Positions 13,501 through 60,800 of a DNA stretch of 64,000 bases are shown here, piece after piece (position 1 is the first letter of the stretch; the number at the start of each line of letters is the position of its first letter). The position numbers and the translations under genes are program-made. Source of the stretch: Sipunculus nudus (lineage: Eukaryota; Annelida; Sipuncula; Golfingiida; Sipunculidae); the NCBI GenBank assembly GCA_026874595.1, contig CM049311.1, positions 8,159,676 through 8,223,675 of the forward strand. The letters are read 5' to 3'. Below the pieces are notes generated by a model that saw only the letters and a program-made list of their open reading frames with translations, searched no databases and had not been told where the DNA came from.

Positions 13501-16500
13501 GTCCGTCCGTCCGGTTGTCCGTCCGTCCGGTCGTCTGGACGTCCGTCTGTTAACAGGACACAAATCGTAACCGCTGGACCTGGAATCTTCCAGGTTGATA
13601 TCCTGGGAGGTCCATAAAACATCTCCTAGGAAACCTGAAATTAGGTCTCTGTTACCAATATTCTCCGAGCAATGGGTCTCGTAAGTACCCCCCCCCACCC
13701 CCAGAATAATATAAAATTTTGATACAAAAGCTCAAGTAGCTAAATAAATACTGCATTGATCACCATGAATTCTCTGCATGAACATTGATCATTGAGTGTT
13801 CCATCAGTTCCTGCAAACTGGTGGCGCCACCTGTATTTTTTTCCAATTTTTATTATTTTTTTTTTCTTTATTTTTGAGACCTTCAAAGAAACTGTCCTCT
13901 GTTAACAGGGCACAAATTATAACTGCTGGACCTGGAATCTTCCAACTTGACATCCTGGGAGGGCCATGAAAAATCTCCATGGAAACCTGAAATTAGATCT
14001 CTGTTACCCATATTCTTCGAGCTATGGGTCTCGTAAATACCCCCTAGAATAATAAAAAAATTTGATACAAAAACTCAAGTAACTTAATAACTACTGCATT
14101 GATTACTATGATTCTTTGCATGAATATAAATCATGGAGTGTTCCAGTAGTTCCTGCAAATTGGTGGTGCCACCTGTATTTTTTCCAATTTTTACAATTTT
14201 TTTCTTTAATTTTTTTTCTACATTCAAAGAAGCTGTCATCTGTTTTTTACTCTAACTGTCATTTTGCTCTTTGTTCAACATTCCTTGAATTCAGCTGAGC
14301 GTCATGGCCCATGGGCGAATAGTTTTATTATGTTTTTCTAAACCTTTCTTCTGTTGGTTGGTTAGTTGGTTTGTTTATTGGTTAGTGTATTGTAGAATTC
14401 ACACTAGACCACGGGCATATATTCATGCCATGGGGTTTCAGGTCAAATGCATCTTCTAAAATCGACAATTCCTCTATTTAGTCATATATAAACAATTATG
14501 AGACTTTAAGTCTACCTTATTTATAGTTTATCTCGTTTTTCCCTAACCAAATACTTTTCAAAGATTTCGGCTCCTCTCTCTTTTGCTTCACGCTATTTGG
14601 TCAGCTGACTTGAAGACAGCAGACGACAGACAAACGCCCAATGCGCATGCGTATAGAAAACTTTTTTTCAACGGAAGGTTACAGAATGGGTCTGCTCATA
14701 AGGGGTTTGGCATTCATAGTTGAGATAATAATTTTTTTTTTGGTCAGTGGAAAATGCGAAATTATTCCTCTCCTGTCATCGCTCTATACACCCTTCTTGA
14801 AAAGTGTCACCAGCAGGATAAAATGGCTGGCATTGGCTGGTTTGCATGAGTGGTGAAACATGTTCTTCCTCATGGAGACATATATGCATGTGCTCTACTG
14901 GACTTTTGTTCCACTATCCATGTGTCTTGTAAATATGTGTGTGTGTGTGTGTGCTGTGACATAACGAAAGCTCAGAAGCATTTTACACGTGTTGCGCTGC
15001 AGAAAAAGGCCTTTTCGCGTAAGGTTTCTTTTAGGCGAGTATTCAATAATATTAAACCAATTCTGTTAAAAAATTTATTCAATTCCCTTCAAACACGAAC
15101 ATCTTAACATCATATTTTATTCCGGCATGTGTCACCCTCAGTTTTCTATAGATCATGCTAATTAGATGTGATATTTGGTGATGTTATAATCTTGGAGACA
15201 GCGGCAGTTCTGCGTGTGGTCGGACAAGAAAACTGACTGGCCCACGCAAGGGAACTTAACACACGTTTTGCTTCTTCTTTCACTTATAAGTTTACATCCT
15301 GTATCTGGCTTTTGTTATAAACCGCTGATTCAACGAAAGTGATGACAGAAAACCCGTGAAAAGGGCGTCACTCACAGTAAGTGGGCGTTTGTATTAGTGT
15401 GTTTTAACAAATTCACAGCCTGTCAATGAATCAAATATTATATATTTAACTTAAGTTTTAAGTCTCAGGGTGCATGTGTAAGAGTGGCGATAAAGCATAC
15501 ATATTCTGTTGCTCGATTTCAATGACAGTAAATATGTAAATATGGCTGATTTTCCTGGTTCTAATTTATTTTTAATTTTTCAATGTTTGGTGTGGGTCCA
15601 TTTCCTGTAAATCCAAATTAACGGTTATAAAAGTATAATTAAAGTTGATACACCGGTGTCTGTAACTATAAATACTTTACACATATATTTCTGTCATCCC
15701 ACAACGTTTAAACAAAACTAGCAACAAGGGTCTTCACAATGTGACTTCGCGTTGTAAATATCGGCCATCATAGAAATATTCAGGCGTGAATAACAAGAAA
15801 ACCTCATACAAAAGCCCAAAGGTCTGTGAAAAAATAGGGAAGGGTCTAGGATCACGTCTCAGTAATTGGTATAAAACCCTTAAAAAGATGGGGGAGGTGG
15901 GAAAAGAGGGACCTATATAAACCCCTGCCCCGCCCCTTCTGAATCCGTTACTCTAATTAATGCTTGTTGATCAGCTTAGCGTCATGAGTCAGGGGCACTT
16001 TTATGTAAAGATTGTACATTAACCCCATGTGTTCCTGTTGCCACACAAAATTTGAACAAAATTTTTTGTAGCATTTATGGACCAGACGTGTTGCAAATAA
16101 TTTTAGAAAAGTAAACATGGATATACTAATGTAATTGCGCGTGTGGTTGCAAATGTTTCTGCTCCCAAATTTCCCCCACCCACACACACACAAACCACGA
16201 AGGTTTAAACCTTTAGGAAAAACTTCCCTGTTGTTAATATTGTGAGGGCAGTGTGCCTCTCAGGGTCAAACACCGTGCACTATCATATATTGGCACTGTA
16301 CGATGGGCGGGTTGTCTCTTGTCAGATATTGTTAGTGTCATCTGTCATTTACTGTCAGTATCATGTTTACTTGTTCATTTTGACCTAGATTACAGTCACT
16401 CTTATTCAGAGAGTGTTATACATATAGAGAATACTGAAGGATAACTTGAGATATTTATATAAAACAAATTTTATTCGCCACTGATATTATGTGGAGCACG

Positions 16501-22500: not shown

Positions 22501-25500
22501 GGTTCAGGGAACACCTGCATGTCTACATGATTGACGATCGCTTCCTCCTGCACCTGATATCCCGCAGCGGAAAATAGTGCCATTTTTGTCAATCATGCAC
22601 AATGATTTTTTATTTAAATACATGATTTTTTTAAACTTTAAAATGAAAGTAATTATAAAATAAAACGTCGGAAGACTTTTTAATAATTATAAACAAGAAA
22701 TTAATTTTAAAAACAGTTCCTCCAGGTTTTCATCTTAAATGAAGACAGATCTGTAACTTTGAATAAATGAATGAAATAGGAAATTTGTAGTGAGTTTTAC
22801 ACAAAGTATGCATGGGATTGTCAGAGAATTTTGAAAACTGCCGAATGTCTGTGGACAAACATTTGTATGTGCAACAGAAGTTCGTCGACTTAAAACTGCA
22901 AAATATTAAAAATCAATCTGTAACACAAATCATTAACCTAGTGCACCTTTATACTTGACACAATTATCCTTGTATTTTTAATTACTCTTATCTGTATTAA
23001 ACACAACACATTTAAGTAATAAAGGCGAAATCGCTATCCATATGACTGAGCAGAGAAAGTCCCCAACCCAGACAAAGCAGATCATGAGCGAGATCGGCAT
23101 CCCTGGTATCAGCGACATAGGGTACGACACAGGCAGTTATATACAGGGTTAATTGTTATTTTAGACACCTCAGGGGTAAAGGGCCATCAAGGGGTATTAG
23201 TTATCTCCCGGGAGCAATGTGTTTAGTACCGTTTACCCGAGGGCAGTCAATGAATTAAAGCACACATAAGGTACCCACATGTGGCTGCCATTTTTGTGGA
23301 TAATTTGTCGTACGTTTTCATATAGACTAGAGCTAGGAATCAAGTTTCTTTGAAGTGTCGTTACGCAGCACTTTTGGTGGAAAGTTGGTCGCAGGGTTTC
23401 TACTGATTGAACATATCTTTTACGACACCTGCATTGGGTCTTTAACGACATAAGTGGAACAAAGACCGGACAAACTCCCCATATCCATACAAATTATGCT
23501 CACCCTTTCAAAACAACAGCGTTTTTACTTCCAGGACAGTGTTTTTCTTGGCCACTGAGCCAACGTTTTTAATCCCTACGTATGTCTTTTTGGTTGGATG
23601 TTGGACGCATTAAAGCCATTATTTTGTTTGAAGTGGAGGTTTTGCTTGTGGTACATCTTGCTTGTTTGTCACTGTTTTCGCGGGAAGTCCGCTACAATGA
23701 TTCGTTTTGATGTGGGTTTCATAGATACATGTCACTTTCCTGTTGATAAGTAACGCGTACCAAATGTTCTGTTGGAAAACAAATTGGTAACATTTTCACA
23801 GAGTGGAAACAAAAACTCTCTCTCATTCCGTTACGGTAAAGGTTTATTTATATTTCTTTTCTTAAAGAAGTAATCAAACAAGGTATTCAACTTATAAAAG
23901 ACAACTTCGCATACATTATTTGAAAATCAGTGAAAATCTCGCCTGCGACCACCCTCCTAAATGACAGCTGCTTTTTTGGCCCTAGACTCATGTAAATCCA
24001 GCGGCGTACCTAGCCTAACTGCCGCCCGGGGCGGTCTTACTAACTCTTAGATATGTCCGCCCCTCTAACAAAACATTACAAAACTAGACAACATATTGAA
24101 AAATATCACGTCAAATTTCCTTGCTATATGGTTTTAGTTGATAACAACGCAATTATATGGATGAAATCATAAGCAAGTAATTCCTTCGCCACACATTTAA
24201 GAGCAGCCATCCCTTTGCCAATGTAAATCAAAGGATCGCCCTAACTTCAAACAAGTATATTCATTATGAAGTGCACAGAAAAGAATAATTGTAACTAGAA
24301 AAAAATACACTGCAGGATACACATATAATGTAGTAACTTAATTTTTCTTTTAAACACGATTTATGATTAGCCTAAACTCAGCATGGAAAAACTTCATTTG
24401 ATGAGTGTTATTCAATTCTGATCGCATATATATACCTTGTTACTTCTATATTTCCACCTTTTTTTTCTTCCCTTTTTTTCGCCTCAGATTGCTGAATTAA
24501 CTCAACCTTCTGAATTCATCATCGGCGATTAAATTTATTTTTAACACAACAAATGACATGAAATACAGACAATTTACATTATTGTACAGGACTCCAAAAG
24601 ACTAACAATTGAAGGCCATTCTGACTACAAATTCAAAAATCCAAGATTCAACAATCTAGATCACAAGCATCTCTTAAATTACCCCATTTCAAAGTATGTT
24701 TAGATATTAAACCTTTTTCATGCGCTAAAAACCTTTCTGTAACCTCTGTCTTGGTTAAAAACCTTCGTAATATTGAAAACAAAGCAGCTGGGTTGTCCTC
24801 CATTTGCAAATACAAAACATATTTAAATAACATCAAAATCTGGTTAATCAGCATGTTTTTTTAAGTGACTGGGAGTATACCATACAATATAACATCTAGT
24901 GATAGATCTGGCATATTAATATCACTATTTTGCATCCATGAGTGTATTTTAAAATAAAGGTTTTTTGGCAACTGCGCATTCAAACAGTAAATGAACAATA
25001 CTTTCATTATACATATATATATAGTTAAAGCAATAGGAACATCTAGGTGTTTCCTTTATTTTCCACTTATACAGATGCTCATTTAGAGGAATGTAATTAT
25101 TCAATAGTTTGTACTGGAATTTTCTCATATGCGTATCCATTGTTGTTCTATAGATACCTTCGTACACATCTTTCCAATAAATATCAATACTATTTTTCAT
25201 GTTCAAGGTATTAAAAAACTTCTGAGCTGTAGGAGGTTTCCATATTTTTTCAATCAATGTGCCGTATATTTTCTTTGAATTTAATTTGTCCATGGACTGA
25301 TGTCCATCAATTGTTACAATAATATCTGTATCAACCTCTGTTGAGTGTACTTCATAGTTCATAAACATTTTTTTCCCAGCGATATGGTATTGCATTCCTC
25401 AATGCTTTCCAGTACATATAATCAAGGGGACTTTTCCTAAATACGTCATGTATTTTCCATACTCCTTTCTCATCAACTAAATCCTTAATATAACAAATGC

Positions 25501-28500
25501 CCAAACTGTGCATTCTATTATTGTACACAGATATTTCATTCTTAGTTATATATCTGTTGTTCCACACAAACTGATAAAGAACATCCTCATGTGTTTTTGG
25601 TTCCACTGACACATAACTTGCCCAGTCTTCAAAACACCTAATATAAAAGTTAGGTTGAACATTTGTTAGAATACTAACATCAAAATTACTTCTAATACAT
25701 CTTAATCCACCAATGTTCCTTAACTTGTAATCCAGTATCTCAGTAGTCTTAGACGACCGATTACAATATAACCGCCTGACCCACAGAATTCTCTGTGATT
25801 TTATCTTGCTCTCAATGTCTGGGACATTGATTACCCCATTTTCATATTTCCCTGTAATTGTAGTATATTTAACCTTAGGTTTTTTCCCCTCCAAATAAAG
25901 TCACAGAGAAGTCTTTTGAAATGCTTCAACGTGTTTTTTGGCGGTATCATCATATTTGTCACATACAAAATCTTTGGTAGAGCTAATGTACGGGCAACTT
26001 CTGCCCTCCCATATATTGAAAGATTTCGACTTTTCCATATTGACATAGTTGTTGCAAGGTTATTTTCCACACGTGTAAAATTTTCTTTATTAATCAAGTC
26101 CTGATTATAAGAATAATGAATTCCAAGTATTTTTATGGTTGCTTTTGTGAGGTCTACCCATTTCAGATAATACAAATTTTTGGTCACATGTTTTATAGAT
26201 CCTATACAAGCAACCTCTGATTTCGTATAATTAAACTTGAGTGAAGAAAAATATTGAAATCTTTCAATTACACGAAGAACATTTTCAAGTGATTTAACAT
26301 TTTCAAAAAATAATGTTGTATCATCTGCAAACATGCATAGTTTGACTTCTGTGTTTCCAATGTCTATTCCTTTTACATTTTTGCCATTTCTAATCTTGAT
26401 TGCCAATATTTCTATTACAAGGATAAATAAATATGGGGCCAGCGGATCGCCTTGCCTGGCCCCTCTTTCTAACTGGAAATACCCTGTGGAAAAGCCATTG
26501 TTCATAACTGAGCTTTGTACATCAGTGTGTAATATTTTAATCCATCTGATAAAAGCACTATCAAAACCAAAATACTTTAAAGTCTCATATATAAAACCAT
26601 GAACAACACTGTCGAAATCAGCCTCTATAGATCTGCTGCAAACATAATTCCAGGTTTATGTTCCAATTCCGTATAATGCAACACATCCCATATTAATCTG
26701 ATCGGTTCTCCAATATATCTTTCCTTAATGAAAGCATATTGGTCATATTTGATTAATTTTGGTAGATATCTTTCTATTCTTTTGACTAATATTTTAGTTA
26801 ATACTTTTAAATCAACATTCAACAAACTTATTGGTCTTCAACCACTTAAGTGTTTTAAATTTTTACCTGGCTTAGGAATTAATTTTACAAGGGCCTGCTT
26901 TGTGAAGATGTCAAAGATCCATGTTCATAATTTTCATTTAAACAATCTGTTAAGCATTGGCCAAGTTCATGAAATAAAGCCAAATAAAATTCCTTTGTCA
27001 ATCCATCATTTCCTGGAGTTTTATTATTCTTCATTGCATTCAAACAGGAATACACCTCATTTCTTGTAATTATATTCCAACATGATTTTGCTTCAGACTC
27101 ACTGAAAGTATTCTCATGTACAGGAAGACATTCAAAATAGCTGTTGAACTCTTGTTCAGTATAAATTACTTTTCTCTGGTATTTATCAATAAAAGAATTC
27201 TCAATAAATGACATGACTGCTGCATGGCAAACAATATCTTGTCTGTCTTTTGACAGAATTCTTATGACACCTTTTTTATGATTATTTTTTTACTAGGTTC
27301 AGGAAGTATTTTGTGCCTCTCTCACCATACTGCTATATTTCCACCCCTTGTTCTCGCATATGACATCAGCTATACACCCTATAGAACGCTGTGATATGAC
27401 ATCAGCTATACACCCTATAGAACGCTGTGATATGACATCAGCTATACACCCTATAGAACGCTGTGATATGACATCAGCTATACACCCTATAGAACGCTGT
27501 GATATGACATCAGCTATACACCCTATAGAACGCTGTGATATGACATCAGCTATACACCCTATAGAACGCTGTGATATGACATCAGCTATACACCCTATAG
27601 AACGCTGTGATATGACATCAGCTATACACCCTATAGAACGCTGTGATATGACATCAGCTATACACCCTATAGAACGCTGTGATATGACATCAGCTATACA
27701 CCCTATAGAACGCTGTAATATGACATCAGCTATACACCCTATAGAACGCTGTGATATGACATCAGCTATACACCCTATAGAACGCTGTGATATGACATCA
27801 GCTATACACCCTATAGAACGCTGTGATATGACATCAGCTATACACCCTATAGAACGCTGTGATATGACATCAGCTATACACCCTATAGAACGCTGTGATA
27901 TGACATCAGCTATACACCCTATAGAACGCTGTGATATGACATCAGCTATACACCCTATAGGACGCTGTGATATGACATCAGCTATACACCCTATAGAACG
28001 CTGTGATATGACATCAGCTATACACCCTATAGAACGCTGTGATATGACATCAGCTATACACCCTATAGAACGCTGTGATATGACATCAGCTATACACCCT
28101 ATAGAACGCTGTGATATGCATGGTAATGCAGCAAGCAATTATAAGGCACTTATATTTTTATACTCAAAACGCGTAATTTCATGAGTTATATGTAGGGAGT
28201 ACCGGTTTGTTTAATGTTTTCAGAAAAAAACTATGTTTTAATAAACTGTGACTTGTTTTATTACAATATCCTCAAAGTTAAAAGCATGCTTTAATTCAAG
28301 GCTACATCAATTTCATTTTAGAATAAGTGAGTATATATGTTTCTGCACTTTGCGAGGTTTTATTTTATGAACTTTAGATTACTTGTTATTCAATAAAGTA
28401 TTTGAATTTGGGGGGGAATTTAAAAGTCCAAGAGTGGAATTTTTTATATATTCAAAGGAAAAAGCAACATAATTCCTCATAATATTTTCCACACAATAGG

Positions 28501-42800: not shown

Positions 42801-45800
42801 AATTCCTCCAAGCACACTTAATGTATATCAGTAAAAAAACAGCCAGACGCCGGGTTGAGAGCGACAGACGCTGACCAGGGTATCAACGGTAATCTGCTGT
42901 ACCGTATCAACAACGTGAAGCGGCTTCAAGGCAAGACAACCTATACTGACCAGAACAGATTTGTGATGAACGCTAGAACCGGAAGTCTGCGTCTTGACAA
43001 AACTCTTCATGACCTCCGCCGGCTGAACCAGTACCCCAAGTTCTTACTCCAAGTCCGAGTCACTGATCTTGCCCAGCCCAAGTCAGAAAGAAGGTATGTC
43101 AGTACGCGCACTGAAGTTTATAACTCAACTTGAAGGCATTTTAGCTGAAGGGACGGCGCCAAGGCCGTCCGAGCACAAAATGCTAGATGCAGCTAAATGG
43201 GCATAGAGTAAGACGCGTACTGGGGAAATCTCTAAGAAAAACGAAACTAGCTCTAGGTGACACTAATTATCTGAACTAAGGGTAGTAAAGGATATTTAGC
43301 ATCTTTAAAGGAGGCTTATTCTTCTAAATGGTCAAGGATGCTAAAAAAATCATTTATCATTTTCCTCGATACTTTTGTTCTATATTTTTCTTGGACTTTC
43401 ACAATCAGTACCCATAGGCAACCTGTGACTTCTGAATATTAGTATACTTTTAAATTTGTTACTTTGAAAGGTCTTCCAAGGCAGATGTGTTCATCCAGAT
43501 AATTCCAGCCAATGAGTATCCGCCACGTTTCAGCCGCCTTCCTCCTGGTCATGTGATTCTCGTGCAGGAGAACGACCCAGTGGGAAAAATCATCTACCTA
43601 GCCAAAGTGAGCCGACATTTTAATACCGTCACTGCAAGTGAAGACATACTGTACAGTTGTTAATGAGACATTCTATTAACAGTTCTCTGAATTCGCAGGG
43701 AAATCGCACGAAGATGTGTTACAAAGCAACTTTTATCCTGAATCCTTAATATTCCTCAGAGATTTGAACCTCTGGTACCGTTGAAAGTCCTCATCGCGGA
43801 AGAGACATTAGAAAACAGAATATTACGAGGAGAGTAGAGTAAACCCTGACGGAGACGATGGTACATGGGCTTTGTTTGACGACAAAATGAGAGGGAGACA
43901 ATCCACGGGGTAACCCCCCCCCCCCCCCCCCAGGACGTAAATAATACTTCACCCCTCCCCGCAGGACGTAAATAATATCCCCCCCCCCCCGGAACAGTTA
44001 CGCACAACCCCCTCTAATGACACAAAGGACAAAAGCCCCCTCCAATAATATAATTTTCGTCACTTTCACCTCATATTATGTATTAAATATTTTTGTCATA
44101 CGGAAATTATTTTTGCTCAAATTCAAAACTTACTTTTTCTTATTTTTATTTAAATCACCTTTACTTTTTTACATTAAATAACATACTGTACGGTGCATGT
44201 GTAAAGATCCAATGATGCATTTCAGTAATGAGATTTCATATATTTTCTCAATATGAGATATATAATTTAAAGTGTACTAAGAAAAATTACGATAAAATTG
44301 TAAAATGAAAGACAGAATCATAACTTAAACTCTGTCTTTTTCTGTCTTTCCTTCGCTTAAGAATTTAGGTTGACAAAAGTAGTCTGTCCGTTGCACCCCC
44401 CCCCCCCCCCAACAGACATACACGCACACACACACTTAGGAACAAGGCCTATGCGCTAGTAATTGTGTCAGGAACGTCTATCGGTGGTTTTACTATACCC
44501 AGGTGACGTTGAAAAAAGTTCCTAAATCATCAGGTACCGATAGTAAATTATATGTTAAGTGTATATATCATGCTCTGATTAAATTAGATTCATTAAGCCT
44601 CCCAAACAGGAAGATGAGGCTTAAAGTGATTGATGATTTATATGTATATCCATATTTGATTAAAGTTTTTTTGTGGGTTGACATACTTAGGTCTATCCGA
44701 GTTTGAAACCATCGAATTCAAAATTTTTGTTTTTCTTTCTTCTGGCATTTACAGTTTGTGCCAGATCTCCAATATGGCTGATTTTCAAAAGCTTAAATAT
44801 TTGGTTACAATATTAGTCCTAGGTCACAGATTCGCACCAGATATGTATTTCTTTACCTTGACCTCATTTCCAAGGTCGTACAGCCGATAGAAAATTCCCC
44901 ATTATCGCTCAGTTACGGGCATCGGCAGGAGGCTTCTGTGGATCTCATGCATCTAGGTATTTTTATATATTGTTACCAGGCCAAGGACAAAGACGGGGAC
45001 GAAGACATATTCCTGAAGTACAGCATCACTGATGGAGACCCAGACGGCTCGTTTAACATCAGCAACAGGTCAGAGCAGAGGTTTAGTTAACTACAATGAG
45101 TACATATGAGAAGGTAGTACTAAATCCTAATGACAATCATTACTATAGATTATTACCCGTGCATTTTTTGAACTTGCAGACCAGTTAAATTTTATTCAAA
45201 TTACGACAGATGTCGCTGCGTGTTCACCCACTGGATACACAGTCTTAGTTTCTCAAAGATGACGCTGCGGTAGCCCCTTCTAAAAATAATGTTAAATTTC
45301 CCAGGGTTTATAGAATGCAGAAAATGACGCCCTTGGGACAAACTTGGCATCATTTCCGACATTTCAAGATCCTGCACCTAAATATCCGAGCCATGGCCAC
45401 AGGGGTTCCCTGAAGACTCTGGAGTAGGAATCACCGTCAATTATAATATATAGATACCCCAAAAACATATATATATAAAAGTCAGGCGGGAGGGATTCAC
45501 AAAATAAATCGGGGACATCAAGTCTATTCATTTCCTATGACAAGATCTCCTTTTCCTGCTAAGAGGTTCTTATTCCCGTCAGCTCTCACTAGTTTAAAAT
45601 ATAATTCACATTAAGTAATATACTTTGTTATTTTTACTCAATTTGTTGTTAATTGATCCCGTATTTATTCAGCGGTCAGATAGCAATTCAGAGGAAATTA
45701 GACAGAGAGACGTCCGACCGGTACAACCTGACAGTACAAGTTACTGATGGAAAGCACGTGAGTTATCATTTGATTTTAATTTAAATTCATCTATATTCTA

Positions 45801-48800
45801 AATGTGAAAACATGTAAAATGTTGTATCCCACAGCGTCATCGAATCACCTAGTCTCTTAAAATGCATTTCATTATAACAGTCAGGACCCTAGTGACTTCC
45901 CTGTCCTTAAATGTATTAAGGTGGTATGTGCTAGAGTGTATTGACTCATACACGCTCTTTCAAAAACATGCGAGACAGAGATTTAAATTAACGAAAGAAA
46001 CATGTCATACTTAAGTTGAATCCTGAATGTGTACATTTAGTCACAAAGACAAAACATGTATAAGAAATCCACAGTGTTTACGAGTCTCTACAACAAGTCC
46101 TGACACGTAAAAGCCCTCAATATAAATATCCTGATAGTTTTGGACTGTGATCTATGATCAAGTCCACTGACCGTTCTATAATGAAGCCTCTAATGTAGGA
46201 ATTTGTCCCACGGATAAAATAAAACAATGCAGCATATTTAGTTTGAAATCATCAAATGGCCAAAAGGCCTGTCCGAATTTACAATTTGCTGTTATTACTA
46301 AGCCCAATCATACACGAAGACGAAAGAGCTTTAACAATCGCGTCGGGTACCATCAAAAGATTTCCCCGGGTCCCGTTTAGCCCCTAAGAACGTCAAAGTT
46401 GCGTGACCCAGTGTTACCCCACCTTCACTTCACGTGCCAACACTTGTCACGTTACTTGAGCCGGAGCTGTGTCCTCTGACTCGTAGTGTTTCAGCATACA
46501 CTACACGAACTTGTCAGTCCTGTAAAGATGATGTCTATAATAATAATAAAAAAGATCTCAGGGTTTACTGCACTGTTCCCTCTCACGATGGACATGTTTC
46601 ACTGAAAGAAAACAATATTCTTGTAAATGCGAACTTGTCCTAACACCGACAATGTCCGTTTTCCTAACGGGTAGCCGGTCTGTCGTTGTCGTTGTCGTCG
46701 GCGACGTCGTCGTCTGTGTCATTCCTTATGAACGCGATAGCTTTTGAACGACACAACATTTTTTCATTAAATTTAAATTTAAATTGTTTCTACCAAAATC
46801 TCGGACATGTTCGGAAAGTTGGGACCTTGACCCTATTCATCAAGATCAAAAAGGCCTAAGTGCTTTTTTTCTCATATTATTTTCTCAAAATTGAAACACT
46901 AATTGTTTCAAACAAGTTCAATGGCAAGATCAATCTGGTGACCTTGGCATGTATCATCAAGGTCAAATCAGATGGAGTATATATTATTGATAACGCTATA
47001 ACTTTTGAACCACTCGGTATATTCTCATGAAATTCGATTTGTAAAATGCTCCTACCAAAATCTGGGAAGTGTTAAAAAACCGATGAACTTCATCATCCAG
47101 GTGAGATCAGCAGAAATAGAAATCGTTGTTTACACAATAACCTTTGAACCATTTAATATATTTTCATATGTGAAATTTGATGAAGAAATCTCGGAAGTGT
47201 TCTGAAACCGGTGACTTTGACCATCATCTTGTAATAGTCCATATTTTTTTCCTAAAATTGGGGATGGAACGCCCATAGGGAGAGGAGACATATATTTGTT
47301 TTTGCATTGTTCAAATCAAACTAATTCTAGTTTCCATATAGATTATTCTCTATTCCTCCTTTCTATATTCCAGACAGCAAAGGCCAATTTTCTGGTCAAT
47401 GTGGTTGATTCCAATGATAATGCACCCAAGTTCTTCGCCCCAAGTTACCACTTCCATATACCAGAGCACAGTTATACTGGAACAGCCATTGGCAAGGTCA
47501 AGGCCATAGACAATGACCTCGGTCCGGCCGGTGAGATCTCATACAAAATCATAGGAACAGACTACTTCAAGGTCACATGGGTATGTGAAGTGGCTATTAT
47601 TATTAGTTTGTTCATTTTTATATAAAGATATTATTTGTTCATAACAGTATTAACGTTAAGTATACTTATACGGTCACAGATACTTGTATAGATAAGGGGA
47701 AGTTAGGGTTAATGGTTTGGACGTAGACTGAAAGTCCATGATTCAGACCTTATAGTTTCAATGACTTCTGGATTGTTCTTAGTCCAATCAAAAAGAAAAC
47801 CTGGTTTCTGATGTTCATTGTGTAGATTTTGTTGTTTATGATTATTCATCATACAACAGACAGTGCCAAGTAAGGTATGGCAATGAAGTGAAAAGAAAAT
47901 TTAACTACCAGACAAAAAGTCGTCACGAAGGTATAATTCAAAGAAAATATTCTACACAAGATTTTACATCTTTCATTATATAAAAGATAATATATTACCT
48001 ATATATTTTTTTTTTTTTTGCAAAACCCAGGATGGTAAGTTGTCTGTCGCCCACCAAGGCCCTTTGCTGGACAGAGAGAGAAACAACCTTTTCCAGTTCC
48101 TTGTGGAAGCGGAAGACAAGGGCTCTCCTCGGATGAAGGTAGATATGTCATTGATAACTGATTGATATTTTCCATAACTGATAAATCATTAAAAAGTTAC
48201 ACTGTGAAAAAAAATATTCAAATGCTTTGTCTAGTTGTAAATGAATGTCGTTTAAATGGCCTATCACATCCTTGCTTTTAAATTTAAAATTTGGTGAGCC
48301 GACTTGGGGATCCTTGAAACACCTGTTTAAATACCCCACGACACTTATCAGTATAGTCATGGAAGTACGGGGTGTTCAAAATCTGTTACTGGTGATATCA
48401 ATTACAAAACGGTATTCTGTCCATGACCATTCACATTCTTATAGATTTAACATCATGGGGTCTCGAAGAGCTATCATTAGCCATACATGTTTGATCACAT
48501 TTCAGAGTTCTGTTGCGGTAAACGTACATATCCTGGACCAGAACGACAACCCGCCGAAGTTCACACGTCATCACTACACAGGCAGCGTGGTCGAGGATGA
48601 CGTCAGCCCCACGGAACAAGTCGTTCTAATGGTAAGATCCGCAGGCCTGTGACTCGCTTTTCTATAGAATAAACCAAACATACCAAATATATAATATTAT
48701 AACATGTTTCATTCTCTCAAACCATTTACACCCTCATTTAAAAATTTTGATATATCTTTTTTCGTATCACTCAACCCTTTAGTGAAACTTGTAACCTTTG

Positions 48801-51800: not shown

Positions 51801-54800
51801 TCTATAAATATGGTAAAATCTTCAGATTTGTCCTATTATATCAGCTTTATATTAACAATCTAATAATCTTATCTAATAACCTACAATGTTTTAATTCGAA
51901 TTTATAATAAACATTGAACAATTTAATCTTCACAATTACGTCGTTACCATTAACCACATCTGGGCTGTATATACTTCAGGTGTAATCCGCTTGGTGGAGC
52001 CACTGTGTAGCGAGCCTCAGCTTACCCGTTACACCTTGTCCGTCGTGGCCATCGATGCCGGGAGCCCTAGAAGGTCGTCTTCAACTGACATCAAATTACG
52101 GTTGCCAAGCAACACAGCCCCAAAAATAGCCGAGTCGTCTAAGCTGATGAAAGTCAAAGAAGGCCAACCTGTCGGAACTATGGTCGGAAAAGTTGTCGTC
52201 CGTGATCCCAACTTCCACGGACTCACGTTTAAAATTACTGAAAACAACAGTAAGTTCAATTTTACAGCAATAATCCAGGCTTATACCAAATGCATTCATT
52301 TGTATCTGGAAAATTTACATTTGATTTACAGCTATTTTTGATTGAAAGACTGGCACATGCATTTAAATGTGAACAGTCGTATTTGTAATTATTCTGGGCA
52401 AAATTACTACATTAACCCCTACTGAGGTTGATTTTGTCTTTTCTTTGAGATTTATTTTTAAGTTTGAATTTTTAGCTCAGCTGACTGTAAGTCATCTGAG
52501 CTATAGCGATCACTCTTTGTCCGTCGTCCGTCCGGCCGTCTGTCCGTTAACAAGGCACTAATCGTAACCACTGGACCTGGAATCTTCTCACTTTACATCC
52601 AGAGAGGTCCATGAAAAATCTCCTAAGAAACATGGAATTAGGTCTCTGTTACCCATATTCTTCAAGCTATGGGGCTGCGAAAAACCCCCCAGAATAATGA
52701 AAATTTGATACAAAAGCTCAAGTATCTGAACAACTAATGCATTGATCACCATGATTCTTTGCATGGATATTGATCATGGAGTGTTTCATCAGTTTCTGCA
52801 GACTGGTGGCGCCACCTGTATTTTATACGATTTTTTTCTCATTTTTGAGACCTCCAAAGATGCCGTCATCTGTTAACAGGGCACAAATCATAACCACTTG
52901 ACATGGAATCTTCTCACTTTACATCCAGAGAGGTCCATGAAAAGTCTTCTTGGAAAGCTGGAATTAGGTCTCTGTTACCCATATTCTTAAAGCTATGGGG
53001 CTCCGAAGTAACCCCCCCCCCCCGAATAATGAAAAATTTGATACAAAAGCTCAAGTATCTGAGCAACTAATGCATTGATCACCATGATTCTTTGCATGGA
53101 TATTAATCATGGGGTGTTTTATCAGTTTCTGCAGACTGGTGGCGACACCTGTACTTTTTCCATTTTTTTTTAATTTTTATTGTAAAGATTCTGTCATCTG
53201 TTAACAGGGCACAAATCGTAACCGCTGGACCTGGAATCTTCTTACTTTTCATCCAGGGAGGTCCATGAAAATTCTCCTTGAAAACCTGGTATTAGGTCTC
53301 TGTTACCCATATTCTTCAAGCTATGGGGCTCCTAAGTACCCCCCAGAATAATGAAAAATTTGATACAAAAGCTCTGAACAACTAATGCATTGATCACCAT
53401 GATTCTTTGCATGGATATTGATTATGGGGTGTTACATCATTTTCTGCAGACTGGTGGCGCCACCTGTATTTTTTCGATTTTTTTACGCTTTTTATTCTCT
53501 ATTTTTGAGACCTCCAAAGATGCCGTCATCTGTTAACAGGGCACAAATCATAACATCTGGACAAGGAATCTTCTCACTTTACATCCAGAGAGGTCCATGA
53601 AGAGTCTTCTTGGAAACCTGGAATTAGGTCTCTGGTACCCCTATTCCTCAAGCTCTGGGGCTCCGAAGTACCCCGTAGAATAATGAAAAATTTGATACAA
53701 AAGCTCAAATATCTGAACAACTAATGCATTGATCACCATGATTCTTTGCATGGATATTCATCATAGAGATTTTTATCAGTTTCTACAGACTGGTAGTGCC
53801 ACCTGTATTTTTTCGATTATTTACGATTTTTTTCTCTATATTTGAGACCTTAAAAGATTTGGTAATCTGTTAACAGGGCACAATTCGTAACTTAGACTTA
53901 GAATCTTCTATCTCGACAGGCAGGGAGGCCCATGAAAAGTCTCCTTGGAAACCTGGAATAAGGTCTTTGGTACCCATATTCGTCAAACTATGGGGCTCCG
54001 AAGTACGCCCCAGAATAATGAAAAATTTGATACAAAAGCTCAAGTATTTGAATAACTAATGTATTGATCAACATGATTCTTTGCATTGATATTCATCATG
54101 AAGTTTTTCATCAGTGTCTGCAGACTGGTGGTTCCATCTGTATTTTTTTCGATTTTTTACTTTTTTTTATCTATTTTTGAGACCTTAAAAGATGTGGTCA
54201 TCTGTTAATTGGGCTCAAATAGTAACAACTAGACATAGAATCTTCTCACTTTACATCCAGAGAGGTACATAAAAAGTCTCCATGGAAACCTGAAAATAGG
54301 TCTCTGTTACCCATATTCTCTGAGCTATTTGGCTTATAAGCACCCCCATCATAATAAAAATTTGATACCAAAGCAGGGCACAAATCATAAACATTGGACC
54401 TGGGATCTTCTGACCTAAAATCCAGGGAGGTCTATAAAAATCTCCTTGAAAACGTGTATTTAGGTCTCTGTTACCCATATTTCTGAGCTATGGGGCTTAT
54501 AAATATAAGCACCCCTCAGAATAATTGAAAATATGATACCAAAGTAGGGCACAAATCATAACCTTTGGGCCCAGAATCTTCTGACTTGACATCCTGAGAG
54601 TTCCTCAAAAGTTCTTCCCAGAAACCTGATATTGTGTCTCAGTGAACTTTATTCTCAGAGTTTTGGGGTATGTGTGAGCACCCTAGAAATAATGCAAAAT
54701 ACACACAAATTGCCATATTCCTCATGAAAGGCCGGTTGGTTTGTCATCAGATTTGTTGTGCTAATGGGTCTTGATGAAGTTAAGCAAATATGCATGAACA

Positions 54801-57800
54801 ATGATGCCCTCTACATTACCTTAATTAGTTGTCTGTGCAAGGACATATTGTCAACATTTCAGTCGGCTGAGCGTCATGAGTCATTGACCCATGGGTCACT
54901 TGTTTTACTCCTTATCTGAAAAGGTCGTGTTCATCCTCTCCTGACTTTGGGACTCTTTACTGTTACGGACTTAACAATTATTATGTGCAAATTTTGAAAT
55001 TTATAAAAAGAAAAAAGTTTTATTTATGATAAATTACGCTAAAGATAGAATAAGAAATTTAAAAAAGTTTTGGAGAAAAATATCAGGAAGAAATATTTGG
55101 TTCGCCGGGACATGAAAAGAAACTAAGGATTCTTATATCCATAACGGAAAAATGAAAGTCATATGTTCAGTTTAAATATGAAACTATCCACTTCAAAACG
55201 TCGGCCTGCTTGGGTTCAAATATTTCTTTTAAGAGTGTAAGACTGTAATTATTTTTTTTTAAACACAGTGAGTGACAATTTTAATCTTTGTGCTCGTCCA
55301 CAATGGTTATAGGTTGTAAAAAGGTAAAAATGGTATCTCAGGATTAGACGAACATGACACTCCTATTCCTACTTTTAACAATTTTTCCCCCACAGTTCCA
55401 TTCAAGATCAGCAAGTCCAACGGAGAAGTGACCACTACAGAGGTCATCGACCGGGAGATGTTTGACATGTACCGGTTCACGGTGACCGTTACTGACCACG
55501 GGTGTCCTGTCCAATCAGCATTCGTCATCCTCACGGTCAGGATCCAAGACGTCAATGACGTGGCCCCGAAGTTCTTACTGCCATACTACGAGGGGACGGT
55601 TGTCGAGGATGACGTCAAACCGAAATATGACCAGCCTGTCATAATGGTATTTCTACAAAGGCAACACTAACCTAGAATATATGACTAGCTTATCTTTACG
55701 GTATTGTTATAAAGAAGTCAAACCGAAATATGACCAGCCCATCTTAATGGTACTGTAAAAAAAAGATGTTAAACTGAAATATGACCAGCCTATCAAATTG
55801 GTAATGTTACAAAGATAACGTTTAACTGAAATATGACCAGCCTATCATAATGTAATTGTTACAAAGACGACGTTAAACTTAAATATGAAAAGTCTATCAT
55901 AATGTTATTGTTACAAAGACAACGTTGAACTGATATATGACCAGCCTATCATAATGATATTGTTACGGAAACGACATAAATCTAAGTATGACCAACCAGT
56001 CATAATGGTTTTGTTACGAAGAGGACGTTAAATCCAAATCTGACCAACCAGATATGATGTTATTGTTACGCAATGTAAAATCTAAATGTGACCAACCTGT
56101 TATAATGGTATTCTTTAAAAGACGACGTCAAACTTTAATATGATCAAGCTGTTATAGTATTAAATCACGAAATGCTCTTTATCATGACTAAAACTTGATA
56201 TTAAATCACGCAGAACAAACCATATTAATTTTACTAGTGAGCTATGCATATTAAAGGAATAATGAAACCATAAAAAAGAATTTGCTATGAATGAACGGTG
56301 ATTACTGGTATTGCACTTACTACAGCACATGTACCTTTCCGCCTTTAGGTAATATAGGAAAAAAACAAAGCTTTAGAGGAGTTGCATTTCAATTTTATAT
56401 AAAGTGGTCACATCTTATCACTTTTAGTTATTATTTGGATATTTTGAGACTGAACACTAATTGAAAATCAGTGTTTCAGAGCGATAAATGACATCAACAG
56501 ATTAACAGGTCCAAATTGATAGCACTTACATCAAAATGAACATGCTGCGTGATGTCAATTGCCAAGAAAACCCCAAAAGACGAAAAATTGGTAATTAAAA
56601 ACGAAAATAAAACATGAATGCAACAGCAGTATGAAGAGTTGCATGTATGAGATATCATGAACCGTAAATATACCTTGTGTCGTTCATTTTTAGGCAAACA
56701 ATGTATCGGCTATAGACGGAGATGCCACGGCCAAATATCAGAAGTTCAAGTATAGCTTACAGGGAGATGATCACAAACTGTTTCATATCCATCCCAGGAC
56801 GGGTCACGTGATCGTCAGTCAGTTCGGCTCCGGCAGAATCAATAGAGAGAGACAGAACCGCTACAAACTGAAGGTAAACAATACACAATCAGGGCAGAAG
56901 CGTATATGGTCCCATATAGACACTTCACAGTTAACTTCAATGTCTGTGAATAATTCCTGATCACTAAGGAATTAGGCAAGAATTATGATACGGAAACATG
57001 GGCATATATAACAGAAAGCTGAGTACAAAATAAAGTTTCGTGAATTCAAGTACATGAATTCTCCAAAAATTAAAGGCAGTGATACTGAAGGCAGTATTGC
57101 TAATCTGGGAGACCCTTTATAAGTCAACTTTTGAATAAAGGCTATGTTTTATTTTCCATTGCACACAAATTTACAAATTATACATTTGGATTTGATCAAC
57201 TCCGACCAGACAAACTTATCCATGCAAAATGAGGGATAAGAACGTTCAAACTACATTTTTAACCACGAAAAAAGAAGTTAATACTCGCCACCTGTTTTTA
57301 AATGTACACGTATTACACGATGACCTTGTGATATTCCACAGCTGATTGTGAAGGACGGCGGAGGGTTGAGCTCGGAGAGCGTGTTGGTCATCAAGGTTCT
57401 GGACGAGAACGACTCCGGCCCATTGTTTCCGTCCAAGTTCCTCCGCATCCGTCTACCTCCCTACGTCCGGCGTGGTCAGCGTATAGCGACTGTCCGGGCT
57501 ACGGACGGCGACGCGGACCGCCCCAACAACCGCCTCGTGTACTTCATAGAAAACAAAGTGCAGGGAAAATTCCGACTTGATATGTGGACAGGTATGTTTT
57601 ATCTTTTTAATGAAAGCATGTCAATTTCAGAGGAATTCACTCAAGAGTTTTCTCAAGGTGTCATCAGTACCATATGCAATATTGAAGAAGAAAGATTATA
57701 TTACTATTATAAAATTTAAGTTTATAACAACGTAATAGTGTGGAATATTTGTTTATGCCCCCGACACAAAGTGGCCGGGGCATATAGTTTTACCCATGTC

Positions 57801-60800
57801 CGTCATTCCGTCCTTCCGAAATAAAACAGTTGTATGGACTTTTTTTTCGCAATGCCTGCAGATATTGGCCTGATTTTTGGTGTGTGGGCAGATAATGACC
57901 ACTTACAGATCGAGTTCGCGTTTCGTCCCGGTTGACCTACTTTTGACCGTTTTACGGCTCCTAAACTTAGAAAATTTCATGAAAAATTTAAATTTTCATG
58001 ACAAATACACATGTACGGACCTTTTTTTTTTTGCTTTGCCTGCAGATATTGGCCTGATTTTTGGTGTGTGGGCAGATATTGACCAGTTACAGATCGAGTT
58101 CGCATTTCGTCCCAGTTGACCTATTTTGACCGTTTTAAAGCTCCTGAACATAGAAAATTTTATGAAGAATATAAATTTTCATGATAAATACACATGTACT
58201 GACTTTTTTTTGCAATACCTGCAGATATTAGCCTGATTTTTGGTGTGTTGGCAGATAATGACCAGTTACAGATCGAGTTCATGTTTTGTCCCAGTTGACC
58301 TACTTTTGAATATTTGACGGTGCTCTAACATAGAAAATTTCATAAAAAAAGTGCACATGTACGGACTTTTTTTCGCAATGCCTGCAGATACGGGCCTCAT
58401 TTTTGGTGTGTAGGCAGATAATGACCAGTTACAGATCAAGTTCTTGTTTTGTCTCAGTTGACCTACTTTTGACCATTTGACTGCTCCTGAACATAGAAAG
58501 TTTCATAACAAATGCATATGTACCGACTTTTTTTCCTCAATGCCTGCAGATACCACCCTGATTTTTTATGTGTGGGCAGATAATGACAGTTACAGATCGA
58601 GTTCGTGTTTCATCCCGGTTGACCTACTTTTGAATGTTTTACGGCTCCTAAACATAGAAAATTTCATGAAAGACAGAAATTTTTATGGAAAATGCACATG
58701 TATGGACTTTTTTTTCACAGTGCCTGCAGATACTGGCCTGATTTTTGGTGTGTTGCTTGATAATGACCCGTAACAGATCGAGTTTGCATTTTGCCCTTGT
58801 TGACCTACTTTTGACCATATGACACCTCCTGAACTTTTTTTTTTTAAATTTAACGAATGTTTCTAATTTGCCCCAGGCGGGGGCATTCGTGACGTTCCGA
58901 CACATCTAGTTCTCATTTTCTTTTCATGACATGGCAGTTTAGACAGTTACCTTTGTCTGTATTGAACACTGAACAAATTAATGACGGAGCTTTGATCAGC
59001 TCTGAAGAAAAATCAAAACACTGTTTCACAGAATATTGAAAAACAGCTAATCATATGCTGTTATTTTATTTCTTTATGTTCCAACATCAGGAAATGTAAT
59101 CCTGTTCATATAGGGTGCAACGGAACAATATTTAGCGGAAGAATTGGCTTAATATCGTATTATCTGCATAGCTTAGGTATATTCTCTGATGAAGAATGAA
59201 CATTAATTATGTTGACCTTTAAGCATTGCACAGTCGATCACTCTGCAGTTCTCATAAATCTGCAAAACTAAAGGTGACCATTTATTTCCTTTACAGGTGT
59301 ACTGGCGGTACAAGATGGTCTTTTTCTTCCTCCAATGAAAAGGAAGTACAACTTGCTGATATTGGTATCAGACTTGGGAAAACCTCCACGAAAGTCAGAA
59401 ATGATGATAGAAGTAATCATGCCCAACACCATTCTCCACAACTCCCCGCCACGCTTCGTGGGGAACACAATTTTCGAAATATCGGAAGGACTTCCGGCCG
59501 GGTCAGTTGTGGGTCAGCTGACCTTGTCGGGACTGCAGGACAAAACTATGCTTCCGGTTACTATGAAAATCCAGAAAAATCCTTTTAAAAAGCCGGTGCG
59601 ACAGTGGTTAGCCGAAGAACTACAGGAAGAAGCTTCCTTTGGTAACATATAAACCCTCTTGCTTAAACGCCATATTAATCATGACTATATTAAGGATGGT
59701 ATTTGGATTGCCATAAAGTAGTATCTAGATTCTGTTTTATACCAATAACATTATTTTAGACAGAATCCTTATTGAAACGAATTCCATACATCTAATTTCT
59801 TTTTGCATTCTATTATTTTGTTCTAAATCTGGAATCGACCTAGTCATAGGTTTATGGGTTGACGTCAAACAATCGTTGTTGAACTGGGACCACATTTCGG
59901 ACTAACCTCTGACAACTGCATTGCTAAAACTTATCTTAGACAATTTTATAACTTTTAGATAATGTACGATATTAGTTTAACTATTAATATATTATTTTTT
60001 TTTATTATGAATATAAAAAAATATAAATATAAAGAGATTTGCTTTGTATTCAAATATACATCTTAAAAAGGTAAAGTTTACAAAAGGCTATTCTTTCAAA
60101 GAGTCTGAAGTGCCATTTGTGTGCATTTCCTAAAGGCAAGTCCAGCCACTCGGCCAAGGGTTCTTTCCTATTGTTATTTCTAAATAACACTAGCACATTA
60201 AGGTCAGAATGAAATGTCGGTGATGAGTCAGACATTTATATTCATAACAATATCGTCTGTAATCATAACATTAAGTAACAGCCGATTGATGTCTAGATGT
60301 AGTTTTCTGGAAATAAAACAACATTACATAACAATACATATGTCACGTTGACACCTTTTAAAACACAATTTTCATGAAAATTAGTCTTTGATTTTGTCTT
60401 TAATTTAACAGTTTAGTTGTTCTTAAATTAACATGATTGTGCATGGTTATAGATTTTTTTTTTAATTTAACCATTGAGTTCTAATTAAATTTACACGAGC
60501 GGTAATTGTTAAAGATTAACCTATGTTATAAAAATAAAACAATACGTATGTATCAGGTATGTTAGTCATTGTTCCTACAGTACTGTTTTTCTTGCAGTCC
60601 CCTTCACTGTTGACGACAACGGTACGATTATGACCACGGCGGCTATGGACTTTGACCACGGGCCATCTTACTACAAGTTCTTCGTAAAGGCAGCAAACAC
60701 AGGGAACCCTGGAAGAACTGACGTCGCGGAAGTGGGCGTGGTTATTAAAGACGTGAATGACAACCCTCCGAAGTGAGTATATTAGATATCTGTATTTTGA

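Follow-up and report, generated by a model that had tools for sequence, protein, structure and literature searches.

A decayed minisatellite behind a cadherin exon of Sipunculus nudus, likely derived from the 3' end and splice donor of that exon

In a cadherin gene of Sipunculus nudus, the end of an exon and its splice donor recur in tandem at the start of the following intron, which raises the questions of whether the exon gave rise to the array or the array to the exon end, and of whether the repeated donors take any part in splicing. We investigated this locus in a window of 64,000 nucleotides (assembly GCA_026874595.1, contig CM049311.1, positions 8,159,676 to 8,223,675 of the forward strand), and all positions given here are counted from the first letter of this stretch. 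A large cadherin gene lies partly within the window, on the plus strand: the joined exon translation, including that of 55396-55646, matched the Pfam Cadherin family (PF00028, E 3.4e-65), and a search of solved structures with the joined protein gave CELSR1 as the top match, followed by a protocadherin. The protein used in both searches has 'TV' at the junction before the exon at 55396, for which a single isoleucine is predicted from the splice sites; its exon end is unaffected. The exon in question (exon 23 in the numbering of the earlier note on this DNA) occupies 55396..55646 on the plus strand within an open frame at 55320-55670, reads PFKISKSNG ... VVEDDVKPKYDQPVIM and ends in phase 0; by inspection, its acceptor is CCCCCACAG and its donor ATG/GTATTT, the slash marking the exon end. 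The next exon (56694..56873, plus strand) starts with ANNVSAIDGD behind the acceptor TTTTTAG in phase 0, and a paralogous exon (48506..48631, plus strand; exon 19 in the same numbering) ends with VVEDDVSPTEQVVLM/GTAAGA, at the same phase-0 position as 55646. All exon limits and the exon-intron boundary were inferred by eye from reading frame, homology and splice signals.

TRF reported the array at 55611-56143, with a period of 52, 10.4 copies and 71% matches. In the unit alignment, for which the starts were placed by hand before MAFFT was applied, it resolved into eleven units, namely the exon end and ten intronic copies, with start-to-start distances of 49-52 bp. The 52-bp unit consists of the final 36 nt of the exon (GAC GTC AAA ... 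ATG = DVKPKYDQPVIM) followed by about 16 nt of intron that include the GTATTT donor. The source unit u00 (55611..55662, plus strand) holds the 36 nt of exon end and 16 intronic nt, its GTATTT at 55647 being the presumed true donor, and the intronic copies u01-u10 follow head to tail on the same strand (55663..56171), the last of them being recognised by the unit profile up to 56164. The identity to the consensus is 57-90% for the intronic copies and 87% for the exon unit, and the pairwise identity among all eleven units ranges from 38 to 87%. The earlier note had described an exon end of about 40 nt with its GTATTT donor, repeated about ten times at a spacing of about 51 bp; this was confirmed, with 36 exonic nt in the unit and ten intronic copies besides the exon. 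Of the coding motif that it had assigned to the repeat, 'VVED' falls outside the unit as cut.

The earlier note had also considered that the repeats might fail to align with the exon end, or that the same array might occur at unrelated loci. The repeats do align: the local alignment of the exon end (55611-55660) with the sequence behind it (55661-56200) scored 58, compared with a maximum of 33 and a mean of 17.4 when the intron (55661-56690) was dinucleotide-shuffled 300 times. The unit profile recovered all eleven units at E 5.4e-7 or better, a circular result in that the profile was built from the same units, and it found no further copies elsewhere in the 64-kb window (best value outside the array, E 2.7). 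When the 561-bp array stretch was searched against the animal's own 1.43-Gb genome, the stretch itself was the sole match among the best candidates scored, with very common words skipped, a count that is a lower bound; the same array at unrelated loci was thus not found among these candidates. We also tested 35 boundaries of the gene (18 donors and 17 acceptors) against their adjoining stretches of at most 6000 bases, several of which run over unlisted exons (e.g. 45068 to 48506), with 60 mononucleotide shuffles each, and only the donor at 55646 exceeded its shuffles (58 against a best of 29 in 60). The comparison of TRF rows with 20 gene exons, which covered 11 of the 28 rows (all but one of the 12 from 35067 onwards) and took some exon limits from the printed stretches instead of the splice sites, gave the 55611-56143 array as the only one overlapping an exon.

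We consider it very probable that this array is a minisatellite made from the gene's own exon end and donor, grown stepwise and with near-neutral intronic copies. A 52-bp segment across the 3' end of the exon and its donor would have been tandemly duplicated, by replication slippage or by unequal exchange, between which the sequence does not tell, and the array would then have expanded step by step to eleven units. Throughout, u00 would have remained under coding and splicing constraint, while the ten later units, presumably excised with the intron, would have drifted as near-neutral sequence. The first donor is presumably still in use, because the later donors would bring in a stop codon: reading through the true donor gives MVFLQRQH and then the in-frame TAA at 55668..55670 (plus strand), and a transcript spliced beyond the true donor would thus meet this TAA and be truncated. 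Such a transcript with a premature stop would probably be subject to nonsense-mediated decay.

We then analysed the donors within the array. GT is kept in register in five of the ten intronic copies (u01, u02, u03, u07 and u09) and lost in the other five (u04, u05, u06, u08 and u10). The true donor scores 2.24 by a donor matrix built from the 17 remaining donors of the gene, and one in-register copy reaches this value (56107, 2.68); the GT of u04, shifted by one base (55851), scores 2.74, and the out-of-register sites at 56074 (5.73), 55985 (5.08) and 56087 (4.69) stand well above the true donor. The predicted U1 duplex energies at the in-register sites 55700, 55749, 55800 and 56107 are -4.4, -5.0, -5.3 and -4.2 kcal/mol, respectively, against -4.2 kcal/mol for the true donor. 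Among the 18 donors examined, the true one (55644-55652) is in fact predicted to pair most weakly with U1, the others ranging from -4.6 to -10.7 kcal/mol, and its leave-one-out score of 2.24 is the second lowest (others 2.0 to 10.18, the lower one being 35325 at 2.0); these 18 are the 20 located boundary strings minus 59616, at which no donor was identified, and 60759. GT sites reaching 2.24 number 7 of 31 in the array (13.5 per kb) and 246 of 1038 in the stretch 35400-57300 (12.5 per kb), where 14 exons, though not every exon, were masked, and the array is thus hardly richer in donor-like sites than the gene's other intron sequence. The ladder of decoy donors that the earlier note had proposed therefore survives in part: one copy by the matrix and four by predicted U1 pairing match the true donor, whereas half of the copies have no in-register GT and the density of sites is near the intron background.

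The same sites bear on the alternative that the array acts on splicing, its copies binding U1 or splicing factors and aiding or competing with the weak donor, so that the copy number would tune the yield of correct mRNA. The low rank of the true donor in both measures and the at least equal pairing predicted for the four in-register copies speak for such a role, as does, by analogy, human ABCA7, for which the length of a VNTR beside a donor is reported to be capable of correlating with splicing (PMC5954066). However, the donors are not preserved, the in-register GT being missing in five of the ten copies, the density of donor-like sites barely exceeds that of the gene's introns, and the predicted RNA structure of the array showed nothing beyond shuffles (fold z -0.10); we regard a splicing role as very unlikely. 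A more specific form of it, in which the array would serve as a splicing buffer of the gene's own making, its copies recruiting or titrating the splicing machinery for the weak donor and their number setting the amount of correct cadherin mRNA, appears highly improbable. The predicted U1 pairing of the four copies would nevertheless count against a neutral reading, which leaves their non-competition with the true donor unaccounted for.

The reading as a near-neutral minisatellite was examined further through the divergence of the copies. The two GT columns change neither more nor less than random columns (tails 0.27 and 0.85), and the differences by codon position in the exon-derived part are 27, 17 and 35 (permutation p 0.17). 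Relative to the exon unit, the intronic copies differ at a rate of 0.219 in exon-derived columns and 0.419 in intron-derived columns, and relative to the consensus the rates are 0.194 and 0.256, respectively. The lower divergence of the exon-derived columns is not predicted by strict neutrality, and it may come partly from change in the intronic part of the source unit itself; neither this difference nor the weak true donor is strong enough to claim function. No inverted repeats of at least 18 nt were found inside the array, with one weak pair outside it, and no Rfam match reached the gathering score. A search of viral contigs with the protein of the exon, the next exon and part of the one after gave eight pattern matches and no relative; the leading V of this query, which was also used for the own-genome search, stems from the base that precedes the exon, and its exon end is unaffected. 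An exact-pattern scan of prokaryote genomes with the unit motif gave no match. The divergence among the copies does not suggest recent turnover and, with age gauged from copy divergence alone in one assembly, the array is most likely old and decaying, with function absent.

We next asked which came first, the exon end or the array. In the alignment of the repeated exon part, with the GTA of the donor, to the exon end of the paralog at 48631, 26 of 39 columns were identical (score 9.5). None of 2000 codon-shuffled versions reached this score, and the ends of 16 further exons of the gene scored from -9.5 to 2.5 against the repeated exon part. Among the eleven units, the paralogous exon fits u00 best, narrowly (9.5 vs 7.5), and two more exons end at the like place of the cadherin repeat (KDNLKPGRPLHQ/ and ENDPVGKIIYLAK/). 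In the boundary shuffle test, no copy of the paralogous exon end was detected in its own following intron. In a search of the own genome with the exon protein, which listed 78 matches from the best 150 of 277 candidates, just two of the matches listed extended past residue 79, namely this exon (query 1-84) and the paralog at C6:8208145 (query 31-82), so that the comparison of paralogous introns covered this one paralog. On the unit trees, whose bootstrap supports are 22-66, u00 is a zero-length branch, as would be expected of a constrained source, although constraint alone could also give it. Adjacent copies are more alike than distant ones (Spearman -0.50, nominal p 0.0005, the pairs not being independent), which fits stepwise growth. 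The homology of the exon end with the paralogous exon, together with the zero-length branch, points to an old exon end and a derived array, and as far as the sequences can tell the exon is likely the source. This agrees with the origin proposed in the earlier note, with the exon as source and the array as derived: the exon end is homologous to that at 48631 and has the same phase-0 donor, and the paralog's intron carries no copy.

The reverse order, in which an intronic minisatellite existed first and a shift of the donor later brought one of its units into the exon, would accommodate both an exon end that is one unit of the array and the weakness of the donor at 55646. However, it is decidedly unlikely in view of the homology with the paralogous end at 48631, which shares the phase-0 donor and whose score neither the codon shuffles nor the 16 other ends attained; moreover, the reading frame runs on into the next exon at 56694, and the array had no other match in the own genome among the best candidates scored. 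An artefact of assembly or sequencing is scarcely credible, since units only 38-87% identical to one another are not duplicated reads, even though tandem repeats are frequently misassembled and the copy number of the assembled allele could still be wrong.

Other repeats and related sequences were also observed. At 27358-28118, a 36-bp unit is repeated 21.1 times at 99% match just past the 5' end of minus-strand frames (24949-27289) recognised by eye as reverse-transcriptase-like, and these repeats may represent tandem 5' monomers of a LINE. The arrays at 52546-54374 and 13541-14244, with units of about 335 and about 352 bp, have like consensus starts and both contain GTTAACAGG.CACAAATC.TAAC, and to judge from these motifs they probably belong to one dispersed repeat family; the former sits in the intron before the exon at 55396-55646. 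A 163-bp unit is repeated 3.1 times at 58169-58671 in a later intron of the cadherin gene, with no overlap with the listed exons. In the own genome, many of the 78 listed matches (L003-L020; on C10, C1 and other contigs) fall within long open frames of cadherins, often about 920 aa in length on C10, and the C10 frames look like an expanded protocadherin set with large uninterrupted exons.

Finally, we compared the minisatellite derived from the cadherin exon end with known systems. Tandem duplication across an intron-exon boundary has been described as a route of intron gain, in potato RdRp and the AGGT model (PMC4974935), and the duplication of the present unit likewise crosses a boundary. 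The creation of a new intron by duplication was rejected for this locus, as the paralogous exon at 48631 has the same phase-0 donor position without an array; this intron position common to the two exons indicates that the intron predates the array. In human ABCA7, the intron 18 VNTR is reported as a 25-bp unit that flanks exon 18 and includes its donor, with highly variable length; the use of a cryptic donor, by which one unit is retained, is described as causing a frameshift, and longer arrays as correlating with exon 19 skipping (PMC5954066). Both arrays directly flank an exon and include its splice donor, but the unit is 25 bp in ABCA7 and 52 bp here. The minisatellite of IFI6 (6-16, G1P3) was reportedly first described by Turri in 1995. 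Two of its downstream repeat units are stated to act as splice donors (PMC4526556). The repeat donors of IFI6 are used in its mRNA, whereas the use of one in the cadherin array would bring in a stop codon.

The closest counterparts are the 'mirage' minisatellites of amphioxus, described for Adh3, the globins BflGb6 and BflGb9, and TnC as tandem repeats spanning an authentic exon-intron boundary, in which many, but not all, copies carry the splice signals and the reported data suggest that regular splicing is undisturbed (PMC3087553). Their units are given as 10-72 bp in Adh3 and 150-160 bp in the globins, and the copies of BflGb6 as 81-100% identical, with a number that varies between haplotypes (PMC3087553); imperfect repeats of the mirage sort, with units of 60 and 108 bp, are also described for lancelet PGBD5 (PMC3902484). 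The literature searched, which was not aimed at cadherins and barely at molluscs, yielded no mirage that we recognised outside chordates, and the published mirages that we encountered were all from cephalochordates. Like the mirages, the Sipunculus unit spans an exon-intron boundary, as inferred here from frame, homology and splice signals, and its splice signal is likewise present in many but not all copies, with GT in register in five of ten. In contrast, the Sipunculus units are 38-87% alike pairwise as against 81-100% in BflGb6, and the gene is a cadherin. Boundary-spanning minisatellites are thus a kind already published, of which the cadherin array is another, old and decayed example; it illustrates that an exon end and its donor can be present in ten tandem copies directly behind a weak donor with the frame open across the neighbouring exons, and it adds to the few minisatellites that derive from an exon-intron boundary of their own gene, whose published examples we found in amphioxus and human.
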